Below are positions 4,660 through 23,164 of a DNA stretch of 64,000 bases, piece by piece (positions within the stretch are counted from its first letter, which is position 1; each line of letters opens with the position of its first letter). The DNA comes from Fuscovulum blasticum DSM 2131 (GTDB taxonomy: Bacteria; Pseudomonadota; Alphaproteobacteria; Rhodobacterales; Rhodobacteraceae), in assembly GCF_003034965.1 (NCBI RefSeq), contig NZ_PZKE01000004.1, positions 124,001 to 188,000 of the forward strand. Reading direction: 5' to 3'. A program made the translations under genes and the position numbers. The notes under the pieces are model-generated. The model had not been told where the DNA came from, did no database searches, and saw nothing but the letters and a program-made list of their open reading frames with translations.

Positions 4660-4724
4660 GAGCCAATAAACCTAGCTAGCCAAAAATTTCTTGACCAGTG
4701 GTGCGGAAGTGGCTAGCTAAATTC

Positions 4725-5654
4725 ATGATCAACAAACCTGAAATCGTCAACCTGTATCAATTTTCCAAACGGTTCCCCGATGAGGAAGCCGCAAGGAAGT
4801 ATTTTGAGAACAATCGCTGGGCTGGCGATGTCTCCTGCCCACATTGCGGCAGCTTTTCGGTTGCCGGGGTCAAGAACCACAAGCCGATGCCCTACCGCTG
4901 CCGGGACTGCCGCCAGCATTTCAGCGTCCGCACTGGCACGGTTCTGGCAGAATCACGCCTTCCGCTGCACAAATGGCTCATGGCGATTTACATGATGACC
5001 GCGGCGCACAACGACATCCCTGCCACGCAGATGGCTCGCGAACTCGGCATTACGCAGAAGTCGGCATGGTTCCTTGCTCAGCGTATCCGCGAAACGTGGT
5101 TGGCCGGCCAAGGCAGTGGCATGGGCGATCATGTGCAGGTTGATGAAACCTATGTAGGTGGTCGTGAGAAGAACAAGCACGCGGACACGAAGTTGCGCGC
5201 CGGTTGCGGATCGGTTGGCAAGACCGTCGTTGCCGGCATCCGCTCCGAAACTGACGTGGTTCGCACTGTGGGGGGGCATGACACCAATGCCGCTACGCTG
5301 GGGCCGTTAGTTCGGGCTAAGGATAACACCAGCGCGATGGTCGTTGCGGACACTCACCGCGGCTATGTCGGACTTCCAGCAGCAGGCCTCAACCATATCC
5401 GCATCAATCGCTCACATTGCGAGTATGTCCGCGACATAGCCCACACCAACGGCACTGAAAGCTTCTGGTCGTTGCTGAAGCGCGGCTATGTTGGCATCTA
5501 TCACTGCGTGAGTGTGAGGCATCTGCATTGCTACGCCAACGAATATTTATTCCGCCACAACACTGCGAAAGCAGGCGCAATGGCATTCATCGAAAGGACG
5601 CTGTGCCGGTCGGTAGGTAAGCGGCTAACCTACAATGGTGTGATCCATGTCTGA
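4725..5654 (+). CDS. IS1595-family (ISXO2-like) transposase
   Basis: A 309-residue DDE transposase. The N-terminal zinc ribbon has Cys38/Cys41 (CPHC) and Cys59/Cys62 (CRDC). A helix-turn-helix-like stretch (ATQMARELGITQKSAWF) follows. Catalytic candidates are Asp140 (VQVDETYVGG), Asp209 (VVADTHRGY) and Glu245 with Lys252 (NGTESFWSLLKRG), the usual ISXO2-like pattern, with the family tail GIYHCVSVRHLHCYANEY. It would cut and join the ends of the surrounding element. An in-frame GTG at 4698 is an alternative start, but ATG 4725 matches the family N-terminus better. The stop overlaps the ParA-like start by 8 bases, which suggests translational coupling. Confidence 0.9.
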   Translation: MINKPEIVNLYQFSKRFPDEEAARKYFENNRWAGDVSCPHCGSFSVAGVKNHKPMPYRCRDCRQHFSVRTGTVLAESRLPLHKWLMAIYMMTAAHNDIPATQMARELGITQKSAWFLAQRIRETWLAGQGSGMGDHVQVDETYVGGREKNKHADTKLRAGCGSVGKTVVAGIRSETDVVRTVGGHDTNAATLGPLVRAKDNTSAMVVADTHRGYVGLPAAGLNHIRINRSHCEYVRDIAHTNGTESFWSLLKRGYVGIYHCVSVRHLHCYANEYLFRHNTAKAGAMAFIERTLCRSVGKRLTYNGVIHV

Positions 5655-6957
5655 CGACAAGAGGGTGATCAAGCCGATCGACGCGGAGTTTGATGCAGTC
5701 GCCAAGGCGATGGTGAAAAATCTGACTGATGTTCCTCCGGCCCATTCGAAAGATACTGTGGCACTGGAAAGGCTAGAAACTCAATCTAGCGGTCGGATTA
5801 CCTCCCGTGGCACGGCAGCGGCCAATACTCATATTCGTAGCTCAACATCCTCCGGGAGAATTTCAGTGGCCAAGGTAATCTCGCTCTTCAATCACAAAGG
5901 TGGCGTCAGCAAGACCACTACAGCCTTCCACCTTGGCTGGAAACTGGCCCGACTGGGAAAGAGAGTTCTGATTGTGGATGCCGATCCGCAATGCAACCTA
6001 ACTGGCTTAACTTTGGGCATAGAGGATTACGATTCGCTGTTCGCTTTTTACGAAAGCAAGCAGAACACAGACATTTTCAGCAGTCTTGCCCCGGTGTTCG
6101 CCTTGGGTGGTGATACGGTATCTTCTCAGGGGGAGAAAACGCCGATTGCCAAAACCAACAATCCGAACCTGTTTATTCTTGCTGGAAACATACGGTTTTC
6201 TGAGATAGACACTCAAATCGCGACAGCTTTAACTAGCAGCGCGACAATTCCTATTCTCCGCCGCTTTGTAAGTGCCTTTAGCGAATTGATACGTAGGGTT
6301 GCAAAAGATAACGACATTGATATAGTTTTGGTCGACATGAGTCCAAGCGTTTCGGCCACAAATCACTGTATCCTGATGAGTTCAGACTACTTTATAATCC
6401 CAATTTCGCCAGACTTCTTCTGCTATCAGGCCATAGATTCGCTTAGCAACGTTTTTCCGCGCTGGGTTGAGGAAATCGCGAGCTTCAAAGATGGTGGCGC
6501 GGATTCTCTTCCTGCAAATAATCCAAAGATGCTTGGTTATATTTCTCAGAACTACCGAATTTACACCGTAGAAGATAAAGTGGAAACGCCAGATCAAAAG
6601 CAAATGTCGAAAGCTTATCTTGATTGGCTGTTAAAGATAAAAGACCTCGTATCAGGAAAGCTTGTCCCGGTGCTAGAAAGTAGAGGTATGATTGTTGGGG
6701 AGGAGAAGTTCCGGGATGCAGTTGGTTACGATGAACCTTATCACCTAGCGGGCGTTCAAAACTTCAGCGGCTTAATACCAGTATCTCAAAAGCTTTCGAA
6801 GCCTATCTTTGAGCTGACGTCGTCTGACGGCCAATGGACAGGCGCGCGCTGGGTCCGAAAGGATGCCAAGGGTAAGGAGCATGGGATCAAAGTGAACATA
6901 GAAGAGGCCAACATGGTCTACACTCGCCTCGCAGAAGCTATCATCGCTATGGCATAA
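5647..6957 (+). CDS. ParA/MinD-like AAA_31 ATPase, transposon passenger
   Basis: A 436-residue P-loop ATPase. A poorly ordered Ser/Thr-rich N-terminal extension (about residues 1-74) precedes a deviant Walker A motif KGGVSKT (84-90) with the signature lysine 84, the DADPQCN motif (111-117) and a Walker B strand ending at Asp228 (IVLVDMSPS). Such ATPases position DNA or protein cargo with a partner, but no ParB-like gene or centromere-like repeat is visible beside it. There is no clear Shine-Dalgarno sequence, and the start overlaps the transposase stop, so it is probably made by re-initiation. Base use is much AT-richer than in the neighbouring chromosome genes. A role in transposition, maintenance or defence is speculation. 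Confidence 0.8.
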   Translation: MSDDKRVIKPIDAEFDAVAKAMVKNLTDVPPAHSKDTVALERLETQSSGRITSRGTAAANTHIRSSTSSGRISVAKVISLFNHKGGVSKTTTAFHLGWKLARLGKRVLIVDADPQCNLTGLTLGIEDYDSLFAFYESKQNTDIFSSLAPVFALGGDTVSSQGEKTPIAKTNNPNLFILAGNIRFSEIDTQIATALTSSATIPILRRFVSAFSELIRRVAKDNDIDIVLVDMSPSVSATNHCILMSSDYFIIPISPDFFCYQAIDSLSNVFPRWVEEIASFKDGGADSLPANNPKMLGYISQNYRIYTVEDKVETPDQKQMSKAYLDWLLKIKDLVSGKLVPVLESRGMIVGEEKFRDAVGYDEPYHLAGVQNFSGLIPVSQKLSKPIFELTSSDGQWTGARWVRKDAKGKEHGIKVNIEEANMVYTRLAEAIIAMA

Positions 6958-13709: not shown

Positions 13710-13901
13710 GCAATGGATTCATTGCCATCCATCTTGCCGCTCTCCGGGGGAATCGGGCGCCTTGGCCCGCGCTCCCTGCGGATAACGGCCCCGGCTCCCA
13801 AGGCGTGTTGCGCATCTTGGCGGTCTGTCGGAAGATAAATCTGCGATCAGTGTTTTGTCTTTGTGCTACCCTTATTCAATCACAATGACAGGACGACTGT
13901 G

Positions 13902-15809
13902 ATGGCCGTCGAAATTGTTGACCCCGGATCGACCGAACTCATCCATCTTGCCTCGGTCGATGTGAAATTCTCGGGCGCCCATATCGGCGGCGGGATCTAT
14001 TTCAGCGCCAACCACAACCCCACGCCCGGCGGCACCAACACCGCGATTCCGCAGCGAAGCCTGGACGGCCAGGTCGAGCAGCACGCCACCACGGAATACG
14101 ATTACACGCTGCCTTTCGGCGGCGCCCCCTGGGACGCCTATCGGGAAGACACCGACAACAACGGAACCCTTGATTACGTCAAGGCAGGCTTCGACATGAG
14201 CCTTCACGTCGGCGCCCGCCTTTCCAGCACAGGACAGTTCTATAACGGTCCGGCGGTTCCGCTGCTGATCGCCAACGATCCGAACGATCTGTTCGGAACG
14301 GTCACCATCACCGGCTATCCGTCGGCAGCCAATTCGCTGAATGGTTTGGGCGGCGTTCTTCACCAGACGACCGGAACGCTTGCCGCCGGACAGTCGATTT
14401 ACACAGGCGAAAATGCCTATGTAGAACAGGATGTTGGTGGTGACATCGGGGGTTATTTCACCATTGACGGTGCCGAAGCCCTGGGCGGCATGAGTGGCGG
14501 CGGAACCTTTCTGGACTATGATGCCGATGGGGATGGCGTGACGGAAACCTACCTGATCGGCGCGGTCGCCCGGGGCGGCGTTGCGTTTGATGAGAATGGT
14601 CAGATCGTCGGGACGTTTGTCCAATCCACCTCGTTCTCGCCGCATTACGCGGACCTGGCCGCCACGATCCAGTCGCTGACCGGTGATGATGCCCGGACGG
14701 CGGATGACTTTCCCCGCATGACGCTGCTGTCGGCGCAGACGGCCGGATCAACGCTGACAACCGTGCAGGGCCAGTTCTTCCACGAGGACATCTACGGCGG
14801 GGTCAACGACGATGCGCTTTTTGGCGGTGGCGGCGATGACCGGATCTTTGGCGGGGTTGGCGCCGACCTTGTCAGCGGCGGCGCCGGCAATGACACGCTG
14901 ACAGGTGGCGCCGGCGCAGACTGGTTTGCGGCAGACAGCTTTGCATCGGGCGGGAACGACGTGATCGCCGATTTCGATGGTGCCGGCGGCGATGTGATCG
15001 ACCTGAGCAGCTATTTCCAGACGCTTGACGATGTCGTCGCCGCCGCGACGGAAACGCCGGATGGTTCGATCCTGATCGCGCTGCCCCCGTCGGCGGGCGG
15101 GGGAACCGTGCAGGTGTTGAATACGTCGATTGCCGACCTGAACGCCGTCAATCTTAACGTGATCTGCTTCGCCGCAGGCACCCTTATCCTGACAGCGCAA
15201 GGCGAGGTGCCGGTTGAAGATCTGGTTCCGGGGGATGAGATCATCACCCGTTCCGGTGCCTCAAGATGCCTGAAGGCGGTCAATACGCGGGTTCTGGGCG
15301 ATCTTGAGCTGACGCTTCGCCCGAACCTCTGGCCGGTCGTCATTGCCAGAAACGCCCTTGGCCCCGATGTGCCCAGCCGAAACCTGCGCGTGTCGCCCCA
15401 GCACAGGGTTCTTGTGAACAGCAGGATCGCGCATCATATGGGGCATGACGATGTTCTTGTTTCCGCAAAAAGCCTTCTGGGCGTACCGGGCATCACCCAG
15501 CCCCGTCCCGAAACTGGCTGCACCTATGTGCACCTGGTCTTTGATCGCCATGAAGTCATCAAGTCGGATGGTTGCTGGAGTGAAAGCCTGTTTCCGGGCG
15601 CCCAGGCCTTTCTGAGCCTGCCCCGGTCTGTGCGTGAGGAGTATGAAGAGATCTTCGGAAATCCAGCCGGCCACAGGCCGGCCGCCACGATCTTCAAGGG
15701 CCACAAGGCCAGGGCGCTGATCCGCCGCCACCTCCGAAACGGCGTGGCGCTCCAGACAGCGGCCCCGCAAACGGCGCGCTGTCAGGGCCAGGCCGGTGCA
15801 AGGGCCTGA
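13902..15809 (+). CDS. Exported trypsin-like protease with RTX repeats and a Hint domain
   Basis: A 635-residue modular protein with three parts. Residues 1-260 look like a chymotrypsin-fold serine protease with a plausible triad His38 (FSANHNP), Asp98 (GFDMSLHV) and Ser198 (GMSGGG). Residues about 299-342 hold calcium-binding RTX nonapeptides (FGGGGDDRIFGG, SGGAGNDTLTGG). From Cys422 (CFAAGTLI) runs a Hint_2 domain, typical of Rhodobacterales exoproteins. No signal peptide is seen, as expected for type I secretion, though no secretion ATPase is nearby. ATG 13902 follows AGGA by 8 bases. Self-cleavage at the Hint junction and protease activity are both inference. Confidence 0.75.
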   Translation: MAVEIVDPGSTELIHLASVDVKFSGAHIGGGIYFSANHNPTPGGTNTAIPQRSLDGQVEQHATTEYDYTLPFGGAPWDAYREDTDNNGTLDYVKAGFDMSLHVGARLSSTGQFYNGPAVPLLIANDPNDLFGTVTITGYPSAANSLNGLGGVLHQTTGTLAAGQSIYTGENAYVEQDVGGDIGGYFTIDGAEALGGMSGGGTFLDYDADGDGVTETYLIGAVARGGVAFDENGQIVGTFVQSTSFSPHYADLAATIQSLTGDDARTADDFPRMTLLSAQTAGSTLTTVQGQFFHEDIYGGVNDDALFGGGGDDRIFGGVGADLVSGGAGNDTLTGGAGADWFAADSFASGGNDVIADFDGAGGDVIDLSSYFQTLDDVVAAATETPDGSILIALPPSAGGGTVQVLNTSIADLNAVNLNVICFAAGTLILTAQGEVPVEDLVPGDEIITRSGASRCLKAVNTRVLGDLELTLRPNLWPVVIARNALGPDVPSRNLRVSPQHRVLVNSRIAHHMGHDDVLVSAKSLLGVPGITQPRPETGCTYVHLVFDRHEVIKSDGCWSESLFPGAQAFLSLPRSVREEYEEIFGNPAGHRPAATIFKGHKARALIRRHLRNGVALQTAAPQTARCQGQAGARA

Positions 15810-15858: not shown

Positions 15859-16578
15859 TCAGACGCTGACCCCGAAGATGCGGCCGACGCCGGCGGTTAT
15901 GGCCATGGCCGCCGCCCCCCAGAACAGCACGCGGGCGGTGGCACGCAGCTTGGGCGCGCCCCCCGCCTGCGCCCCAAGGGCCCCCAGTCCCGCAAGGCAA
16001 AGCAGCGTTGTGACGACCACGACAGGAATGATCTTGTCGGCGGGCGCAAGAACGGCCGCGATCAAGGGCAGGGCGGCCGCCACCGTGAAAGTCAGTCCCG
16101 AGGCAAAGGCGGCCTGAAGGGGGTTGGCCGCGTGAACCTCTGACAACCCAAGTTCGTCCCGCACATGGGCGCCAAGCGCATCGTTCTGCGTCAGTTCCCG
16201 CGCCACCAGCGCGGCGGTTTCCGCCGACAGCCCGCGGGATTGATAGATCGAGGCCAGTTCCGCAAGTTCTGCCTCGGGCGTGTCGATCAGGGCCTGCTGT
16301 TCGCGGGCGATGTCGGCGCGTTCGATGTCGGATTGTGAACTGACAGAGACATACTCGCCCGCGGCCATCGACATGGCGCCGGCTGCCAGCCCGGCCATTC
16401 CGGCAACCAGAACGGCGCCGGGGCTTGGGTCGGCGGCGGCGACGCCGACGATCAGCGAGGATACCGAAACGATGCCGTCATTGGCCCCCAGAACGGCAGC
16501 CCGCAGCCAGCCTGTGCGGTTGATGAAATGCAGCTCTTCGTGGGCGGATTTGTATGGAAGGGTCATCTTTGATTCCAT
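15859..16578 (-). CDS. VIT1/CCC1-family membrane protein
   Basis: A 239-residue integral membrane protein of the vacuolar iron transporter family, which in eukaryotes moves Fe2+/Mn2+ across membranes. The family signature GWLRAAVLGANDGIVSVSSL (23-42) is intact, followed by GMAGLAAGAMSMAAGEYVSVSSQ. A cytoplasmic loop with many acidic residues (metal-binding domain) covers about residues 85-150, and three hydrophobic segments end the protein. ATG 16578 is taken; ATG 16566 is also possible, with neither well supported by a Shine-Dalgarno site. It lies 4 bases downstream of the sensor kinase gene, so it may be part of that operon and respond to a metal signal. Confidence 0.87.
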   Translation of the reverse strand: MESKMTLPYKSAHEELHFINRTGWLRAAVLGANDGIVSVSSLIVGVAAADPSPGAVLVAGMAGLAAGAMSMAAGEYVSVSSQSDIERADIAREQQALIDTPEAELAELASIYQSRGLSAETAALVARELTQNDALGAHVRDELGLSEVHAANPLQAAFASGLTFTVAAALPLIAAVLAPADKIIPVVVVTTLLCLAGLGALGAQAGGAPKLRATARVLFWGAAAMAITAGVGRIFGVSV

Positions 16579-16582
16579 CGGT

Positions 16583-17929
16583 TCAGGGGGGCGGGGTGTG
16601 TGTCTGTTCCGGGCAAAGCCGGATGGTGGCGGAAAAGCCGCCGGCTTGGCCGGGCAAGGGCGATGCCAGCGTCAGCGTGGTGCCGCTGCGTTCGGCAATG
16701 GTGCGCACGATGGCCAGCCCCAGGCCGCTGCCGCTGCCCGCGCCCGTGCCACGCACGAAGCGACCTGAAAGCGAAGCCAGCACGTCCGGGGGCACGGCGG
16801 GGCCGTCATTCTCGACCTTGAGCCAACCATCAGGCGCCAGATTTACCCGCACCGGCCCCCCGCCTCCATGGCGCAGCGCGTTTTCAACAAGGTTGCGCGC
16901 GACGATGGCAACGGCGTCAGGGTCAAGGTCTGACAGTACTGCATCGGGCGGCAGGGACCATTCGATCCGGCCCTGATCGGCCCCACGGGAGAAGTCCTGC
17001 GCCACCAGTTGCAGGACGGGTCGCAGATCCTGCGGCCGGTCGGTCATCAGCCTCGCCCCTTCGGCGCGGGCAAGCTGCATCAACCGCTCGGCCAGCCGTG
17101 TCAGGCGCTTCAGGACGGCTTCGATCTCGTCGGCGCGGGCGGCGGTGTCGGTCTCGCGGGTCTGCCCGCGCAGGCGCTGGATCTGGGCAATCGCCCCGGC
17201 CAGCGGCGTGCGCAGCTCATGCGCGGCGTTCGAGGCAAAACTGCGTTCGGCGTCAAAGGCCTTGCCAAGCCGAAGGAACAACTGGTTCACCGTTTCGCCG
17301 ATGGGGCGCAGCTCCTCTGGCAGGGTCTCGGTCCGCAAGGCGGACAGGTCATTCGCATTGCGGCGGGCAAGCTGCTGGCGCAGCACCCCCAACGGTCTCA
17401 GCCCGTAGCCCAGCCCGTAAGCAATGCCCACCAGACTGAGCGGGATCACCAGCCCCAGCGGCAGCGCCAGGGCCAGCGCCACCTCGCCCGCCACCTCATG
17501 CCGATGCGCCATCGGTTCGGCTATGGTCAGGATGATGGAGCCGCGAACCGCCGCTTCCTGATAGAAACGGAAACCTTCCGTCTGGTGGAAGCCAGGCTGG
17601 TCAAGCACGGGGAACTGCGCCGGATCGGCGCGATGCGAGGCCAGCAGCACACGTCCCTGCGGATCGCGGACCAGATAGGTGAAGTATTCCTCGTGCTGGT
17701 CCAGCGCGGTGACGTGCTGGGTGATTCCCTCCTCGTCACGGCCCAGAACGTCGATCACGGCCAGTTGCAGAATGCGTTGCCCGGTTTCCTGCAGGGCGGA
17801 ATCGAAAACCTCGTTCATTTCGCGCAGCAGCAATTGCCAGGTGATTGCGGCGGCGGCCACCCAGACCAGCGTGACCGCCAGCGCCAGCGCCAGCGCGGAT
17901 CGCAGCCGAAGCGACGCGGGGCGTTTCAT
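16583..17929 (-). CDS. Sensor histidine kinase (QseC/PmrB-like)
   Basis: A 448-residue membrane kinase. TM1 spans about 12-33 and TM2 about 150-172, with a periplasmic sensor domain of about 115 residues between them. A HAMP-like linker follows, then the H-box FASNAAHELRTPL with phospho-accepting His237, the N-box NLVENALRHG and the G-box GSGSGLGLAIVRTI. It overlaps the response regulator gene by 4 bases (ATGA). The neighbouring divergent operon with a poly-Asp protein and PepSY proteins, and the adjacent VIT protein, make a metal or redox signal plausible, but the ligand is not visible in the sequence. Confidence 0.9.
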   Translation of the reverse strand: MKRPASLRLRSALALALAVTLVWVAAAAITWQLLLREMNEVFDSALQETGQRILQLAVIDVLGRDEEGITQHVTALDQHEEYFTYLVRDPQGRVLLASHRADPAQFPVLDQPGFHQTEGFRFYQEAAVRGSIILTIAEPMAHRHEVAGEVALALALPLGLVIPLSLVGIAYGLGYGLRPLGVLRQQLARRNANDLSALRTETLPEELRPIGETVNQLFLRLGKAFDAERSFASNAAHELRTPLAGAIAQIQRLRGQTRETDTAARADEIEAVLKRLTRLAERLMQLARAEGARLMTDRPQDLRPVLQLVAQDFSRGADQGRIEWSLPPDAVLSDLDPDAVAIVARNLVENALRHGGGGPVRVNLAPDGWLKVENDGPAVPPDVLASLSGRFVRGTGAGSGSGLGLAIVRTIAERSGTTLTLASPLPGQAGGFSATIRLCPEQTHTPPP

Positions 17930-18585
17930 GGGCGCCCCAGCCGATAGCCAAGGCCGCGTTCCGTGGCGATCACCCCGGCCCCAAGTTTCTTGCGCAGCCG
18001 GCTTACATGCACTTCGATGGCATTGCTTTCGACATCGGCGTCAAAGGAATACAGGTGTTCCTCAAGCTGGGATCTGGTCAGCAGTTGCGATGGCCGGGAC
18101 AGGAAGGCCTCGAACAGCACCCATTCACGGGCCGTCAGCGCAACCGGCTTGCCCGCGCGGCGGATGCTGCGGACGGCAAGATCAATCTCAAGATCGCCAA
18201 ATCGCATCACCGGGTTCGGATTGCCGGAGTAGCGCCGCGCCACCGCGCCGATGCGGGCGGAAAGCTCGGCCAGGTCAAAGGGCTTGACCAGATAGTCATC
18301 GGCCCCGGCATTCAGCCCGTCGATCCGGTCTGAAATCTGGTCAAGCGCGGTCAGGATGATGACCGGCGTCGTGTTGCCCCTGCTGCGCAGGGTCTTGAGG
18401 AACGGGATGCCACGCCCATCGGGCAGCATCAGATCAAGCAGGATCAGGTCAAAACTGGCGCCGGCAAGTGCATCCTGCGCCTCGTCCAGCCGCATGGCCC
18501 AATCAACGGAATGGCCATCCGCCTCGATCTGTTCGCGCACGGCGGCGCCGATCACCTTGTCATCCTCGATCAGCAGAATCCGCAT
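17926..18585 (-). CDS. OmpR-family response regulator
   Basis: A 219-residue two-domain regulator. The receiver domain has the acidic pair Glu7-Asp8-Asp9, phospho-acceptor Asp51 (LILLDLMLPDG), Thr79 (IILTALD) and Lys101 (DDYLVKPFD). The C-terminal winged helix (about 127-217) has ALTAREWVLFEAFLSRP and the recognition segment SNAIEVHVSRLRKKL. It is first in the operon with the sensor kinase and faces the PepSY/DUF2271/ApbE operon across a 153-base promoter region, its probable target. Confidence 0.93.
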   Translation of the reverse strand: MRILLIEDDKVIGAAVREQIEADGHSVDWAMRLDEAQDALAGASFDLILLDLMLPDGRGIPFLKTLRSRGNTTPVIILTALDQISDRIDGLNAGADDYLVKPFDLAELSARIGAVARRYSGNPNPVMRFGDLEIDLAVRSIRRAGKPVALTAREWVLFEAFLSRPSQLLTRSQLEEHLYSFDADVESNAIEVHVSRLRKKLGAGVIATERGLGYRLGRP

Positions 18586-18738
18586 CTTGCCCTCTGGCCG
18601 CGCAATGAACCTCTGGTGCCTGTCTTCTAATGTCCCAACCTGACGGTAGCCTTAAGCACTTTCTGGCAGCGCTTCAGGATGCTGTCAGATTCGTGGCGCA
18701 AAAGGCATTCAATCGACGACCGCGCCGGAGTTTCATTG
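18586..18738. promoter_or_regulatory. Divergent promoter region, response regulator / PepSY operon
   Basis: The 153-base gap separates the divergent regulator operon from the electron-transfer-like operon. A possible direct repeat (TCAGGAT and TCAGATT, 11 bases apart, around 18674-18692) has the spacing of an OmpR-type box. No strong -35/-10 pair stands out. Confidence 0.35.
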
Positions 18739-19053
18739 ATGCGAAAGACCCTCACCGTTCTGACACTGGCAGCCCTGATGGCGGCTGGCGCGGTACGGGC
18801 CGACGATGATTGCGTCGTTCCGATGACCGATTGGCAACCACGCGAGGCCGTCGCCCGTCTGGCTGCCGAAAAAGGTTGGACCGTGCGGCGGATCAAGATC
18901 GACGATGGCTGCTACGAGATCGTCGGCACCGATGCCACCGGACGCAGGATCGAGGTCAAGCTCCATCCCGGCACCTTGAGCGTTGTCGAGATGGAATACG
19001 AAGACAACGATGAACACGAGGGTGGTCACGGCCTGAAGCAAGGCGACGACTGA
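18739..19053 (+). CDS. Periplasmic PepSY-domain protein
   Basis: A 104-residue protein with a signal peptide (residues 1-21, TLTVLTLAALMAAGAVRA) and a single PepSY-like domain (WQPREAVARLAAEKGWTVRRI, DGCYEIVGTDATGRRIEVKLHPGTLSVVEMEYED). ATG 18739 is preceded by GGAG with an 8-base spacer. The acidic, His-containing tail (EDNDEHEGGHGLKQ) could bind a metal. Small PepSY proteins are often found beside two-component systems and PepSY membrane reductases; here it is the first gene of the divergent operon. The exact role is unknown, perhaps an inhibitor or a carrier for the reductase. Confidence 0.8.
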   Translation: MRKTLTVLTLAALMAAGAVRADDDCVVPMTDWQPREAVARLAAEKGWTVRRIKIDDGCYEIVGTDATGRRIEVKLHPGTLSVVEMEYEDNDEHEGGHGLKQGDD

Positions 19054-19136
19054 CCCCTTTCCCCTGATGCCTTTTGACGGCGCCTCCGGCCTGTGGTCGG
19101 GGACCGGCTTTCCATGTCCTGAAGGAGCGAAACCTT

Positions 19137-19508
19137 ATGAAACTCTCTGCACTCATGACCCTTCTGAGCACGGCGATCGGTTCTGCCGGCGCAGCCCCGG
19201 CACCGGCCTGCGCCCTGACCCTGCCGCCGCTGGCCGGCGCATCGGCCAATGGTGTGGCCGAAGTGCCCGGCCGGGCGCCCGGGGTTCTGCTGGTGGATGG
19301 TGATGATGATCTGGGTGGCTGGCTGTTCTTTGGACACGACCACGATGACGACGACGATGATGATGACGACGACTGCGACGATGATGATGACGATGAACAC
19401 GAATGTGGCGGCAAAGGCGGTGGCAACGCCGCGCCGGCGGGTTCGGTTGCGCCGCCGAAGAACGGCCTGTTCGGGGGCGGCAAGCCGCCTGTCGTCAAGA
19501 CCAACTGA
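19137..19508 (+). CDS. Exported poly-aspartate protein
   Basis: A 123-residue protein with a signal-peptide-like N-terminus (MKLSALMTLLSTAIGSAGA). Residues 67-90 are almost all acidic: HDH, a run of ten Asp, Cys, six Asp, then EHEC. A Gly/Pro-rich tail carrying Lys residues follows. The low-complexity block could bind divalent metals such as Ca, Fe or Mn, or organise mineral. GAAGGAG is 9 bases before the ATG, and the gene lies between the PepSY and DUF2271 genes, so it is very likely expressed. I know no characterised homologue. Its codons alternate GAC and GAT, which argues against a simple sequencing artefact. Confidence 0.7.
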   Translation: MKLSALMTLLSTAIGSAGAAPAPACALTLPPLAGASANGVAEVPGRAPGVLLVDGDDDLGGWLFFGHDHDDDDDDDDDDCDDDDDDEHECGGKGGGNAAPAGSVAPPKNGLFGGGKPPVVKTN

Positions 19509-19535
19509 TCGCTGAACCATTCAAAGGAAAGAAAA

Positions 19536-20012
19536 ATGCTGGCAAAATCGTTCATCTCTGCCCTTGTGCTGACCACGGCACTGACCGTTCCCGGCCTTGC
19601 GCAGGCCCGCCCGGTGACCTTGACCGTCAACCTTTCGCAATATGGCGGGGACGGTGCCTATCTGGCGGTCTATGTCACCGATCCGGCCGGTGCCTATGCC
19701 GGCAGTCTGTGGATGGCGGGGGGCAAGGCCAAGTATTATCGCCACCTGTCCGACTGGGCTCGCTTCACCGGCGAGAACATCGCCGAGGTGAACGGCATAA
19801 CCGGCGCAAGCGTCGGCGCGGGCCGCAGCCTTGAACTGTCGATGGATCTTGCCGACGCGCTGTTCGATGCCGGTTACACGCTGCACATTGATGCCGCGGT
19901 CGAGGACATGCGCGACAGTCCGAACGAGATTGCCGTGCCGCTGACGGCCGCCGGGGCGGGCCAGGCCGTTGCGGGCCGCCAATACATCGCCGATTTCACC
20001 TACGGCTTCTGA
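19536..20012 (+). CDS. DUF2271 periplasmic protein, probable flavinylation target
   Basis: A 158-residue protein with a signal peptide (1-24, ending AQA) and a DUF2271 domain (LTVNLSQYGGDGAYLAVYVTD, GSLWMAGGKAKYYRHLSDW). Residues 85-92, VNGITGAS, closely match the D-x-x-[ST]-G-A-[ST] motif that ApbE flavin transferases modify in NqrC and RnfG; Ser92 would carry the FMN. The next genes encode a flavin-containing PepSY reductase and ApbE itself, which fits a periplasmic flavoprotein that receives electrons from the membrane reductase. The motif match is seen; modification is inferred. Confidence 0.8.
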   Translation: MLAKSFISALVLTTALTVPGLAQARPVTLTVNLSQYGGDGAYLAVYVTDPAGAYAGSLWMAGGKAKYYRHLSDWARFTGENIAEVNGITGASVGAGRSLELSMDLADALFDAGYTLHIDAAVEDMRDSPNEIAVPLTAAGAGQAVAGRQYIADFTYGF

Positions 20013-20025
20013 ACAGGACCACGCC

Positions 20026-22233
20026 ATGATGCGCCGCCTTCACCGCTGGCCGGGCCTGCTGGCCGCGGCTTTCCTGATCATGCTTGCCGTAAGCGGCGCG
20101 ATACTGTCGGTCTTTCCGGCGGCTGAACGGATTGCGTCACCTGCCGCAGTGCAGGGCCAGACGGTGGCGGAGCTTGCCGCGCTGGTGCTGGACCAGCACC
20201 CCGGAGCCGAGCAGATTCGGCGTTCGCCGTCGGGAAAGATCACCGTCTGGTGGTTTGACGGCGGGACACCGGGTGCGGCGGTGATCGACCCGGCTACCGG
20301 CCAGGATGTGGCCAGCGCCGACAAGAGTGTCATCCGGCAATGGCTGACCGCCTTTCACCGCTCGTTATTGCTGGATGACGCGGGGCGGATGACCATGGCG
20401 GCGGCGGCCTTCGCGATGCTGTGTCTGGCGCTTTCGGGCAGCCTGCTGGTGGCCCGGCGGGTTGGTGGCTGGCGAAAGTGGTTCAGCCGCCTGCGCGGGC
20501 CGCTGGCCGGGCGACTGCACACCGAGCTGGCCCGCCTTGCCGTGGTGGGGCTGGGCATTTCTGCGATCACCGCCCTGTGGATGGCTGCCGCGACCTTTGA
20601 CCTGTTGCCTGTCGACGAGGCGAACCCCGCCTTTCCGGCCACTGTCAGCGGCCAGACCGGGGTTATGCCGTCCGCGATTCCCGCCCTTCAGGAAACTCCG
20701 GTCGCGGATTTGCGTGAACTGGCCTTTCCTGCTGCGGATGATGCCAGCGATGTCTACACGCTGACCACTTCGCAGGGCACCGGCTATCTTGACCAGGGAA
20801 CCGGAGCGTTGCTGGTCTGGGCCACGCCCGGGCCTTGGGCGCGTGCCTATGAATGGGTCTATCTGCTGCACACGGGTGAGGGGGCCGCGCTCTGGGGGCT
20901 TGCCCTTGGGCTAATGGTGCTGGCCACCCCCGCGCTTGCCATAACGGGCGCGATCCTCTGGGCGCAGGGCCGGCGCGGTCGGCCCCGGCTGCGGGGCATG
21001 GTCGCGGCCGCGCGGGCTGAGACCGTAATTCTGGTCGGCTCCGAGGGGGGCAGCACCTGGGGCTTTGCCGCAACGCTGGCGCGCGCGCTGCAGGCCGCCG
21101 GTCAGGCCGTACACATGGCACCGCTGTCCTCGTTTTCTCCTGCCGACTACATTGCGGCGCGGCGAATCCTGGTGCTGACGGCCACCTGGGGCGATGGGGC
21201 AGCGCCGTCTTCCGCCAAGGGGGGGCTTGAACGACTGGCCGCCGCGCGGCCGCTGGCCGACGTGCCGCTTGCGGTTCTGGGCTTTGGCGACAGCAGCTTT
21301 CCAGATTTCTGCGGTTTTGCCGTGGCCTTCGAGGCCGCCGCGCGCGACCGTGGCTGGAACCTGCTGTTGCCGGGGGAACGCATTGATCGCCAGTCGCCGC
21401 AGGAATTCGCCCGCTGGGGGCGTGCGCTTGGTCAGGCGCTTGGCTTGCCGCTGGAGCTGAACCATCAGCCGGATACGCCGCCGGTCACAAGCCTGACCCT
21501 GATCTCGCGCCGCAATTATGGCGAGGCGGTGCAGGCCCCGGCCGCGATCCTGCGCTTTGCCGTACCGAAGGCAGGCTTGTGGCGCCGGTTGACCGGGCGC
21601 GGTTTCGGACGGTTCCGCGCAGGTGATCTGCTGGGCATCCTGCCCCAGGGGGCCGCCGTGCCGCGGTTCTATTCGCTGGCCTCGTGCCACCGAGACGGGT
21701 TTGTCGAAATTGCCGTGCGCAAGCATCCTGGCGGGTTGTGCTCGGGCCAACTGATGGCGCTGCAACCGGGGCAGTCGGTACAAGCCTTCCTGCGCCCGAA
21801 TCCGGCCTTCCAGCCTGACCGTGGCACCACCCCGCTGATCCTGATCGGCGCGGGCACCGGCATCGGTCCGCTGGCGGGGTTCATCCGCGCGGAAGGTGGG
21901 CGGCGACCCGTTCACCTGTGGTTCGGCGCGCGCCATCCTGATGCTGACCTGCTGTTCGGCGAAGATCTTGAACGCTGGTCGGATGAGGGGCGCCTGACGG
22001 GGTTGCGTACCGCCTTTTCCCGCAGCGGTCCGCGTCAGCATGTGCAGGACGCCCTGCGTGGGGATGCCTTGGCCCTGCGGGCGCTGATCGCGCGTGGCGC
22101 CCGGATCATGGTCTGCGGCGGGCGGGACATGGCAAGGGGCGTGCAGGGCGCACTGAACGAGATCCTGGCGCCGATGGATCTGACCCTTGTCACGCTGAAA
22201 TCCGAGGGGCGCTATGTCGAAGACACCTACTGA
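20026..22233 (+). CDS. PepSY-type membrane flavoreductase (PepSY_TM + flavodoxin + FNR domains)
   Basis: A 735-residue fusion. An N-terminal PepSY_TM module (about 1-330) has several hydrophobic helices and recurring His motifs (LHRW, FHRS, LHTE, LHTG) that may bind haem b. Next is a flavodoxin-like domain (about 338-475; VGSEGGSTWGF, LTATWGDG, LGFGDSSF). A ferredoxin-NADP reductase domain ends it, with the FAD motif RFYSLAS, the NADPH motif GAGTGIGPLAGF and CGGRDMARGV. Electrons would run NADPH to FAD to FMN to membrane haems to a periplasmic acceptor. ATG 20026 follows AGGA by 7 bases. It overlaps apbE by 20 bases. Confidence 0.85.
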   Translation: MMRRLHRWPGLLAAAFLIMLAVSGAILSVFPAAERIASPAAVQGQTVAELAALVLDQHPGAEQIRRSPSGKITVWWFDGGTPGAAVIDPATGQDVASADKSVIRQWLTAFHRSLLLDDAGRMTMAAAAFAMLCLALSGSLLVARRVGGWRKWFSRLRGPLAGRLHTELARLAVVGLGISAITALWMAAATFDLLPVDEANPAFPATVSGQTGVMPSAIPALQETPVADLRELAFPAADDASDVYTLTTSQGTGYLDQGTGALLVWATPGPWARAYEWVYLLHTGEGAALWGLALGLMVLATPALAITGAILWAQGRRGRPRLRGMVAAARAETVILVGSEGGSTWGFAATLARALQAAGQAVHMAPLSSFSPADYIAARRILVLTATWGDGAAPSSAKGGLERLAAARPLADVPLAVLGFGDSSFPDFCGFAVAFEAAARDRGWNLLLPGERIDRQSPQEFARWGRALGQALGLPLELNHQPDTPPVTSLTLISRRNYGEAVQAPAAILRFAVPKAGLWRRLTGRGFGRFRAGDLLGILPQGAAVPRFYSLASCHRDGFVEIAVRKHPGGLCSGQLMALQPGQSVQAFLRPNPAFQPDRGTTPLILIGAGTGIGPLAGFIRAEGGRRPVHLWFGARHPDADLLFGEDLERWSDEGRLTGLRTAFSRSGPRQHVQDALRGDALALRALIARGARIMVCGGRDMARGVQGALNEILAPMDLTLVTLKSEGRYVEDTY

Positions 22234-23164
22234 TCCGCACCGGATGCTTCTGTCGGGCCCGACGATGGGAAGCCGCTGGTCCGTCTTGCTGGACGAACCG
22301 GCCAAGCCCGATGCCCATGCCTTGCAAGCGGCCTTGCAGGCGGCGGTGGATGAGGTGGACGCCCAGATGTCCACCTGGAAGCCCGACAGCGATCTGATGC
22401 TGTTCAACGCGGCTCCTTGCGGGGACTGGGTTGTTCTGCCCGCGGGGCTGATGGCCGTGCTGCGGGCGGGCGTGCAGATCGGCCGCGCAACCAAAGGCGC
22501 GTTCGAGATGAATGTCGGGGCCGCCGTGCGTGCCTGGGGCTTCGGGTCCGATCCGGCAGACCTGGCCGCCATACGCGCGGCAAGCGGCGCTGCGCGTGTC
22601 TCTTCCGTCGCGGCGCTGGAGCTGGACCCGGCCCGTCAGGCCGCGCGCAAGACGGCACTGCTTGCACTCGATCTGTCGGGAATCGCCAAGGGATATGGGG
22701 TGGACAGGCTGGCCGAGGTTGTTGCCGGTCACGGACTGAGCCGGGCGCTGTGCGCGATTGATGGCGAAGTGCGGGCGCTTGGCCGCCAGGCTGATGGTTC
22801 GCCCTGGTCCGTTGCCATCGAAACACCTGACAGTCCCGACCGGGCGCCCCATTCCATGCTGGCATTGACCGAAGGCGCGGTGGCAACCTCGGGTGACTAC
22901 CGGCACTTTCTGACCGTCAGGGGACGGCGGTTGCCACATACCATTGACCCGCGCCGTGGATCACCGCTTGTGGACGGCCCCGCATCGGTCAGCGTCATGG
23001 CGGCCGATTGCATGACGGCGGATGCAATGGCGACGGCCCTGATGGTGATGGGCAAGGACGAGGGGCTTGCCTTCGCGCGGCAACACGCCATCAGCGCCCT
23101 GTTTCTGCTGCGCGATGGTGCGGCCCTGCGATCTGTCGGCAGCGGCATCTTCGCGGACGGCTGA
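22214..23164 (+). CDS. apbE: FAD:protein FMN transferase (ApbE)
   Basis: A 316-residue flavin transferase that attaches FMN from FAD to a Ser/Thr of target proteins. Family features are GPTMGSRWSV (15-24), DAQMSTWKPDSDLMLFN, FEMNVG, DLSGIAKGYGVDRLAE, and the C-terminal HTIDPRRGSPL and MTADAMATALMVMG with metal-binding Asp/Thr. Unusually for a bacterial ApbE there is no signal peptide or lipobox, so it should act in the cytoplasm or be exported by another route. It closes the operon and most likely modifies the DUF2271 protein encoded two genes upstream. Confidence 0.9.
   Translation: MSKTPTDPHRMLLSGPTMGSRWSVLLDEPAKPDAHALQAALQAAVDEVDAQMSTWKPDSDLMLFNAAPCGDWVVLPAGLMAVLRAGVQIGRATKGAFEMNVGAAVRAWGFGSDPADLAAIRAASGAARVSSVAALELDPARQAARKTALLALDLSGIAKGYGVDRLAEVVAGHGLSRALCAIDGEVRALGRQADGSPWSVAIETPDSPDRAPHSMLALTEGAVATSGDYRHFLTVRGRRLPHTIDPRRGSPLVDGPASVSVMAADCMTADAMATALMVMGKDEGLAFARQHAISALFLLRDGAALRSVGSGIFADG

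Follow-up and report, generated by a model that had tools for sequence, protein, structure and literature searches.

A candidate periplasmic metal reductase locus of Fuscovulum blasticum and the exported tail protein that accompanies it

Genes of the locus

The genome of Fuscovulum blasticum DSM 2131 (3.59 Mb) contains a cluster of flavin-related genes beside a two-component system, which was analysed within a stretch of 64,000 nucleotides (contig NZ_PZKE01000004.1, positions 124,001 to 188,000, indexed as G000:C4:124001-188000). This whole stretch is referred to as the window, and coordinates follow its numbering unless a contig index is given. The cluster comprises a putative membrane reductase, a predicted flavin acceptor of the DUF2271 family, the flavin transferase ApbE and a small exported poly-Asp protein with a conserved C-terminal tail.

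A first-pass annotation, made from the sequence alone, had described five adjacent genes divergent from a two-component system, and open reading frames (ORFs) with Pfam matches locate all of them as placed. The plus-strand series begins with an exported PepSY_2 protein with an acidic C-terminus, a putative metal-sensor accessory (18739..19053; PF13670, E 6.8e-26). The exported poly-Asp protein follows (19137..19508, plus strand), with two Cys in its acidic stretch and a 28-residue C-terminal tail, GNAAPAGSVAPPKNGLFGGGKPPVVKTN (19422..19505), delimited by a tail profile and alignment. Next are the DUF2271 protein, with a predicted acceptor site for flavin mononucleotide (FMN) at NGITGAS (19536..20012; PF10029, E 4.1e-33), a PepSY_TM-flavodoxin-FNR fusion of the reduced nicotinamide adenine dinucleotide phosphate (NADPH) reductase type (20026..22233; PF03929, E 9.4e-34) and ApbE, a flavin adenine dinucleotide (FAD):protein FMN transferase without an export signal (22214..23164; PF02424, E 1.2e-74). 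The divergent, minus-strand operon encodes an OmpR-family, PmrA/QseB-like response regulator (17926..18585; Response_reg and Trans_reg_C) and a QseC-like histidine kinase with a 2CSK_N sensor (16583..17929; HisKA, HATPase_c and 2CSK_N). Its third gene, which is absent from the first-pass account, begins 4 bases past the kinase gene and encodes a VIT1/CCC1-family metal transporter (15859..16578; PF01988, E 3.1e-66).

The poly-Asp protein, its tail and its heads

The steadiest part of the poly-Asp gene is the 28-residue tail (PPxNGLFxxGxxP), not the Asp run. In the 20 rows of this genomic context that were chosen to build the tail profile, the consensus is xNAAPAGTVAPPxNGLFxxGxxPxVxxN, with P12, N14, L16, F17 and P23 invariant. 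The window tail, itself a row of the profile, matches it with an E-value of 5.2e-13 (G000:C4:143422-143505). Because the rows of the profile come from this context, it may miss tails that occur elsewhere.

The distribution of the tail was surveyed by searching for DUF2271 (E 0.001) in a family sample of 393 genomes and a class sample of 289, following an earlier set of 60 relatives. DUF2271 was detected in 85 family genomes (84 above the family cut-off) and 31 class genomes (15 above). Loci were taken around above-cut-off matches only; these 113 stretches plus the window gave 100 family loci, a count that takes in the window and its genus, and 14 loci of other families, on which profiles seeded with the window proteins were iterated. 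The fusion is a single ORF in 88 of the 100 family loci, and in 63 of these a tail-bearing protein stands beside DUF2271 (38 poly-acidic, 21 PepSY_2 and 4 less acidic). When only the 71 fusion loci with 5.5 kb or more of upstream sequence are considered, the divergent regulator and kinase are present in 62, a PepSY_2 protein in 57 and a tail protein in 51. The fusion is present in three of the 14 other-family loci, two of which have the tail. The poly-Asp gene, on whose conservation in this neighbourhood the first-pass annotation had staked its reading, is thus conserved beside DUF2271 and ApbE.

At the level of genomes, the tail profile matches 61 of the 393 family members, comprising 60 of the 85 with DUF2271 versus 1 of the 308 without (Fisher 2.6e-49), and the single exception has lost the LF core of the tail. 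In the class sample the tail is found in 3 of 289 genomes, each time next to this system, all three having supplied profile rows. A tail-only scan of an 84,980-species genome collection matched 191 stretches, of which 174 were confirmed and the best 80 kept and examined. In 79 of these best 80, DUF2271 lies directly downstream on the same strand; the remaining contig stops 73 bases past the tail. The tail-found loci overlap the DUF2271-found loci, and the two sets are not independent. From their names, we take the tail-found records to be alphaproteobacterial, except one labelled Enemella (L207; label only).

The acidic head is equally concentrated at this position. With a threshold of at least 13 D, E or H per 20 residues, 62 of 11,415 ORFs of at least 50 residues were retained across the 114 loci (1.67 Mb); the slot that immediately precedes DUF2271 accounts for 41 and PepSY_2 proteins for 18, and of the other three, two are the kinase and one lies elsewhere. 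This concentration, together with the co-occurrence of the tail, rules out the poly-Asp run as a chance ORF or low-complexity artefact. The Asp run as the conserved feature itself was likewise ruled out, since the head varies while the tail stays. At least two Cys are present in the 70 residues before the tail in 54 of 62 distinct poly-acidic tail proteins; their spacing is most often 9, in a separate count of 64 that includes two PepSY-headed proteins.

Across relatives the same tail sits on either poly-acidic or PepSY_2 heads, with 41 PepSY_2, 38 poly-acidic and 1 between among the best 80 tail-found loci. The changes of head were counted on a quick tree made from 90 fusion proteins. With head states scored on the 64 tail-bearing rows only, 12 changes between PepSY_2 and acidic heads are needed, at least 7 of which are forced by well-supported branches; scoring tail-less rows as a third state raises the number to 20. 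As far as sequences tell, heads have been exchanged repeatedly on one tail, and part of the switching could stem from gene exchange between strains. Because poly-Asp and a folded PepSY domain can replace one another, they would seem to share one simple function, and the acidic head is predicted to bind metal. L100 has a PepSY_2 protein, encoded about 1.2 kb before DUF2271, with three tandem copies of the NGLF tail motif at its C-terminus. Some relatives of the same genus have another type of system, in which the PepSY_TM-like gene is separate and an EF-hand-like protein, another acidic, ion-binding protein in the poly-Asp slot, precedes DUF2271 (L021, L027, L029, L031, L032 and L036; checked against Pfam only for L029). 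In L029 a TonB receptor gene lies upstream as well.

In three genomes the tail gene has no DUF2271 gene beside it. In G288 and G131 it lies beside the two-component genes and apart from DUF2271 (about 29 kb away in one, on another contig in the other), and the tails of both split loci, L227 and L228, are intact. G188 (L226:4963-6533) has no DUF2271 match and keeps the regulator, the kinase, PepSY_2, b561 and a PepSY-headed tail protein, the tail of which reads NGAS where others have NGLF. The change has the look of decay that followed the loss of the reductase. The decayed tail of L226 and the intact tails of L227 and L228 fit selection on the tail that lasts only as long as the core is present, although the decayed state is a single case.

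Electron transfer, flavinylation and regulation

The cytosolic half of the fusion is, by sequence and fold, an NADPH diflavin unit of the cytochrome P450 reductase/sulfite reductase type. In the membrane half, four His (H6, H111, H165 and H282) are invariant across 28 aligned fusions, and these four residues suggest that the membrane half binds two hemes. The Pfam content, the diflavin half and the invariant His together back the earlier proposal that the fusion can carry electrons from NADPH across the membrane. The structure model of the fusion has a mean predicted local distance difference test (pLDDT) score of 70.1 and a predicted template modelling score of 0.37, with the membrane part weakest. 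The PepSY_TM gene adjoins the genes for DUF2271 and ApbE, and NGITGAS, which fits the flavinylation motif [S/T]GA[S/T], is present in the window DUF2271 and in the aligned relatives shown, so that a covalent flavin on DUF2271 is predicted.

Export signals were judged by a 10-residue Kyte-Doolittle mean at the N-terminus, leaving out proteins that lacked the anchor motif or were cut by the end of the stretch. The test covered 83 ApbE and 63 DUF2271 proteins from 91 fusion loci, and 72 and 77, respectively, from the 80 tail-found loci. A hydrophobic N-terminus is present in none of the ApbE proteins (0/83 and 0/72) and in all of the DUF2271 proteins (63/63 and 77/77) of these overlapping sets. 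A 9-of-12 hydrophobicity test was dropped, having detected only 33 of 91 DUF2271 signals. The cluster ApbE is the sole ApbE in 13 of 58 cluster genomes searched, 12 of them at least 90% complete, and short ApbE N-termini are visible in those 13. As ApbE has no export signal and is the only one in these 13 genomes, the flavin is probably attached before DUF2271 is exported. The first-pass annotation had ApbE attaching FMN to a periplasmic acceptor; the TGAS motif bears out DUF2271 as the acceptor, whereas the missing export signal of ApbE speaks against attachment in the periplasm. Co-expression of a signal-truncated DUF2271 with ApbE in Escherichia coli led to flavinylation (PMC8238504), and hence the chemistry works in the cytosol.

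The window genome has a second ApbE with an export-type N-terminus less than 300 bases before the window (G000:C4:122968-123720; L135), and its cluster ApbE may serve another protein. This second copy is presumably NosX-like, with an N-terminus of the twin-arginine type, and stands beside genes that we take to be NosY-like and NosL-like.

In the divergent promoter, an 11-base direct repeat, TCAG-N7-TCAG, forms the predicted response-regulator operator (18672..18691, plus strand). The repeat was chosen from k-mer counts of the same intergenic regions that were then scored. With both locus sets pooled, TCAG-N7-TCAG is present in 78 and CTGA-N7-CTGA in 76 of 83 distinct regulator-PepSY_2 regions; one or the other is present in all 83, and any other spacing from 2 to 15 in at most 5. 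A control in which letters were shuffled singly gives 0.24, the regions being related by kinship. In the window the TCAG repeat is whole and the second repeat is kept only as CTGA..CTTA, a weaker second half of the operator (18637..18656, minus strand). The site at 18672-18691 is the one exact consensus match in the genome, and 18637-18656 is a two-mismatch partner in the same intergenic region. Seven genome sites have at most two mismatches, two in this promoter and five, all two-mismatch, elsewhere; a reversed control gave none. This conserved spacing points to binding of the response regulator to the TCAG-N7-TCAG repeats. A PmrA-type CTTAAG box was rejected as the operator, being present in only 3 of 89 distinct intergenic regions. 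The best NCBIfam matches of both regulatory proteins fall below their cut-offs (PmrA for the regulator, 205.7 of 330 bits; QseC for the kinase, 172.9 of 475 bits). Kinase sensors that lack a neighbouring PepSY_2 gene are the more acidic ones (median D+E 9 versus 5, n=10 versus 71, p 0.003), although two of those ten kinases (L123 and L127) are probably unrelated. An Asp/Glu-rich stretch was seen in the predicted periplasmic kinase sensor of L034, L099, L104 and L109, with no PepSY_2 found nearby.

Of the 65 loci whose flanks are long enough to tell, 22 have a VIT1 gene. Three lie with the two-component genes and 19 on the DUF2271 strand (18 downstream and 1, in L091, far upstream). Among the 71 fusion loci, 23 have a b561 gene and 13 have a ferric-reductase-like gene, one representative of each having been Pfam-checked. 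The VIT1 and ferric-reductase-like neighbours point to iron. Elsewhere in the window are a protein with RTX calcium-binding repeats and a Hint_2 domain (13863-15809, plus strand) and an IS1595-family transposase gene followed by a ParA/AAA_31-type gene (4698-6957, plus strand).

Proposed function and relation to known systems

The locus is tentatively read as a metal-responsive, NADPH-driven periplasmic reductase, most likely of Fe(III), to which we give somewhat less than an even chance. Electrons from NADPH would enter the cytosolic half of the fusion, pass its FAD and then its FMN, reach two hemes in the membrane half, and move from the hemes to the FMN held covalently by periplasmic DUF2271 and on to the metal; we infer the direction of flow and iron as the substrate from gene content and sequence. 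The poly-Asp protein would be an exported metal-holding partner, tied through its C-terminal tail to the DUF2271/reductase module, a link suggested by co-occurrence; in relatives a second PepSY_2 domain stands in place of poly-Asp ahead of the tail. The divergent promoter would be controlled through TCAG-N7-TCAG by the two-component system, probably assisted by the first PepSY_2 protein, and VIT1 would move the metal. ApbE would act in the cytosol, DUF2271 being flavinylated and then exported. A narrower proposal, possible although we lean against it, is that the tail is a docking peptide for interchangeable metal-presenting heads and that DUF2271, flavinylated by cytosolic ApbE, passes through Sec with its covalent flavin. 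If this holds, attachment before Sec export would be an order of steps new to extracytosolic flavoproteins. The tail itself offers a marker for a putative metal-reduction system of many alphaproteobacteria, and two questions become open to experiment: by what means these reductases hold their metal substrate, and whether the Sec channel lets a covalently flavinylated protein pass.

Several observations weigh against the main reading. No tail stands beside DUF2271 in 25 of the 88 fusion loci; in L091, L102 and L120 the C-terminal end resembles a degraded tail that the tail pattern leaves uncounted. Either an additional ApbE or a duplicate of the cluster is present in 45 of the 58 genomes, and another ApbE could therefore flavinylate DUF2271 there. 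Eukaryotic VIT1 homologues export iron from the cytosol, which fits uptake badly. A joint fold of the poly-Asp protein with DUF2271 (mean pLDDT 46.7, tail near 30) leaves docking unsupported; at such low confidence it does not disprove the predicted docking of the tail on the DUF2271/reductase module. In a profile search with the membrane half, the ferrioxamine reductase FoxB (Protein Data Bank (PDB) entry 7ABW) scored only E 0.33, behind four unrelated chains, and the 50 listed of 1301 Foldseek rows are all diflavin reductase entries, 7ABW not among them, the membrane model being weak. By either route the match to FoxB is weak or masked by the diflavin half.

The tail gene staying with the two-component genes in L227 and L228, with DUF2271 elsewhere in the genome, could also indicate a regulatory role. 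The tail protein would then be a signalling part, its head sensing metal, its tail reporting the state of the module and the whole tuning the histidine kinase, which we regard as unlikely. Several loci with a single PepSY_2 protein carry the tail on that protein, and the higher acidity of kinase sensors without a PepSY_2 gene would suit such a role, but that comparison is small. Moreover, L226, in which the two-component genes, PepSY_2 and b561 are kept and the core is absent, has a decayed tail, which suggests that the tail depends on the core.

Three further readings, each improbable in our estimation, change the target of the reductase. The fusion might reduce periplasmic Cu(II) for oxidase assembly, as the CrpH authors speculate, and a copper-linked PepSY_TM protein exists (PMC13038864). 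No copper gene is among the 16 window proteins scanned (relatives were not searched for copper genes), and the VIT1 and ferric-reductase-like neighbours favour iron over copper. Asp-rich chains also prefer hard ions. The acidic heads might equally bind Ca2+ or lanthanides, the reductase having another purpose, which would suit the EF-hand-like protein before DUF2271 in relatives of the genus and the binding of lanthanides through acidic residues by the periplasmic PepSY protein LanP/LanPepSY (PMC11845868); LanP, however, has two PepSY domains and the window protein one PepSY_2. Finally, the reductase might act on protein thiols or on methionine sulfoxide, and the acidic run would then be a solubility aid or charge tether. 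The Cys ahead of the tail would fit such a target, and related membrane reductases serve methionine sulfoxide reductase, but none of the eight scanned proteins of the region is encoded by a thioredoxin or MsrP gene.

The core of the preferred reading, NADPH-driven metal reduction, is not new: it has been published as the PepSY-like flavinylation system. Meheust et al. (2021, PMC8238504) describe 3220 such clusters, 2833 with DUF2271 and 167 with VIT1, and 1077 PepSY-like genes with an NAD-binding domain; a DUF2271 protein of another species is flavinylated at [S/T]GA[S/T], and iron reduction is argued. Their class rule places PepSY_TM (PF03929/PF16357) within five genes of ApbE or DUF2271, with a signal peptide on at least one target gene; an exported ApbE is usual and lies outside the rule. 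The window shares PepSY_TM, the DUF2271 motif, ApbE, the NAD-binding domain found on some and VIT1 found in some, and its gene proximity and the hydrophobic DUF2271 N-terminus agree with the class, whereas its ApbE is not of the exported type. It differs further in the diflavin-reductase fusion in one ORF, the divergent two-component system with its operator, and the tail protein with exchangeable heads. The main text of that report mentions no poly-aspartate or aspartate-rich component, cytosolic ApbE or cytochrome b561.

In Caulobacter, the CCNA_03155-03159 operon, tied to iron limitation and to fitness under ethylenediaminetetraacetic acid, likewise encodes a PepSY-family membrane protein, DUF2271 and a flavin-dependent reductase (PMC12004947). 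It also contains DUF4198, which is absent from the eight window proteins scanned with Pfam (relatives were not searched for it), and the available text of that report does not mention a poly-Asp or tail protein. FoxB shares PepSY_TM and conserved heme-ligand His with the fusion (PMC11334425, PMC13038864) and differs in being a 382-residue chain to which flavodoxin and FNR are not fused. LanP/LanPepSY resembles the window PepSY_2 protein in being small and periplasmic with an acidic metal site, although its two PepSY domains contrast with the single PF13670 of the 104-residue window protein, and a tail or DUF2271 context goes unmentioned in the available text (PMC11845868). The first-pass annotation did not know the combination with a poly-Asp component to be described; the core has been, and for a poly-Asp or tail component, no published description was found among titles and abstract openings in open-licence PubMed Central. 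Relative to the published system, what is new is a dedicated two-component regulator and a small exported partner with a swappable head and a constant tail.

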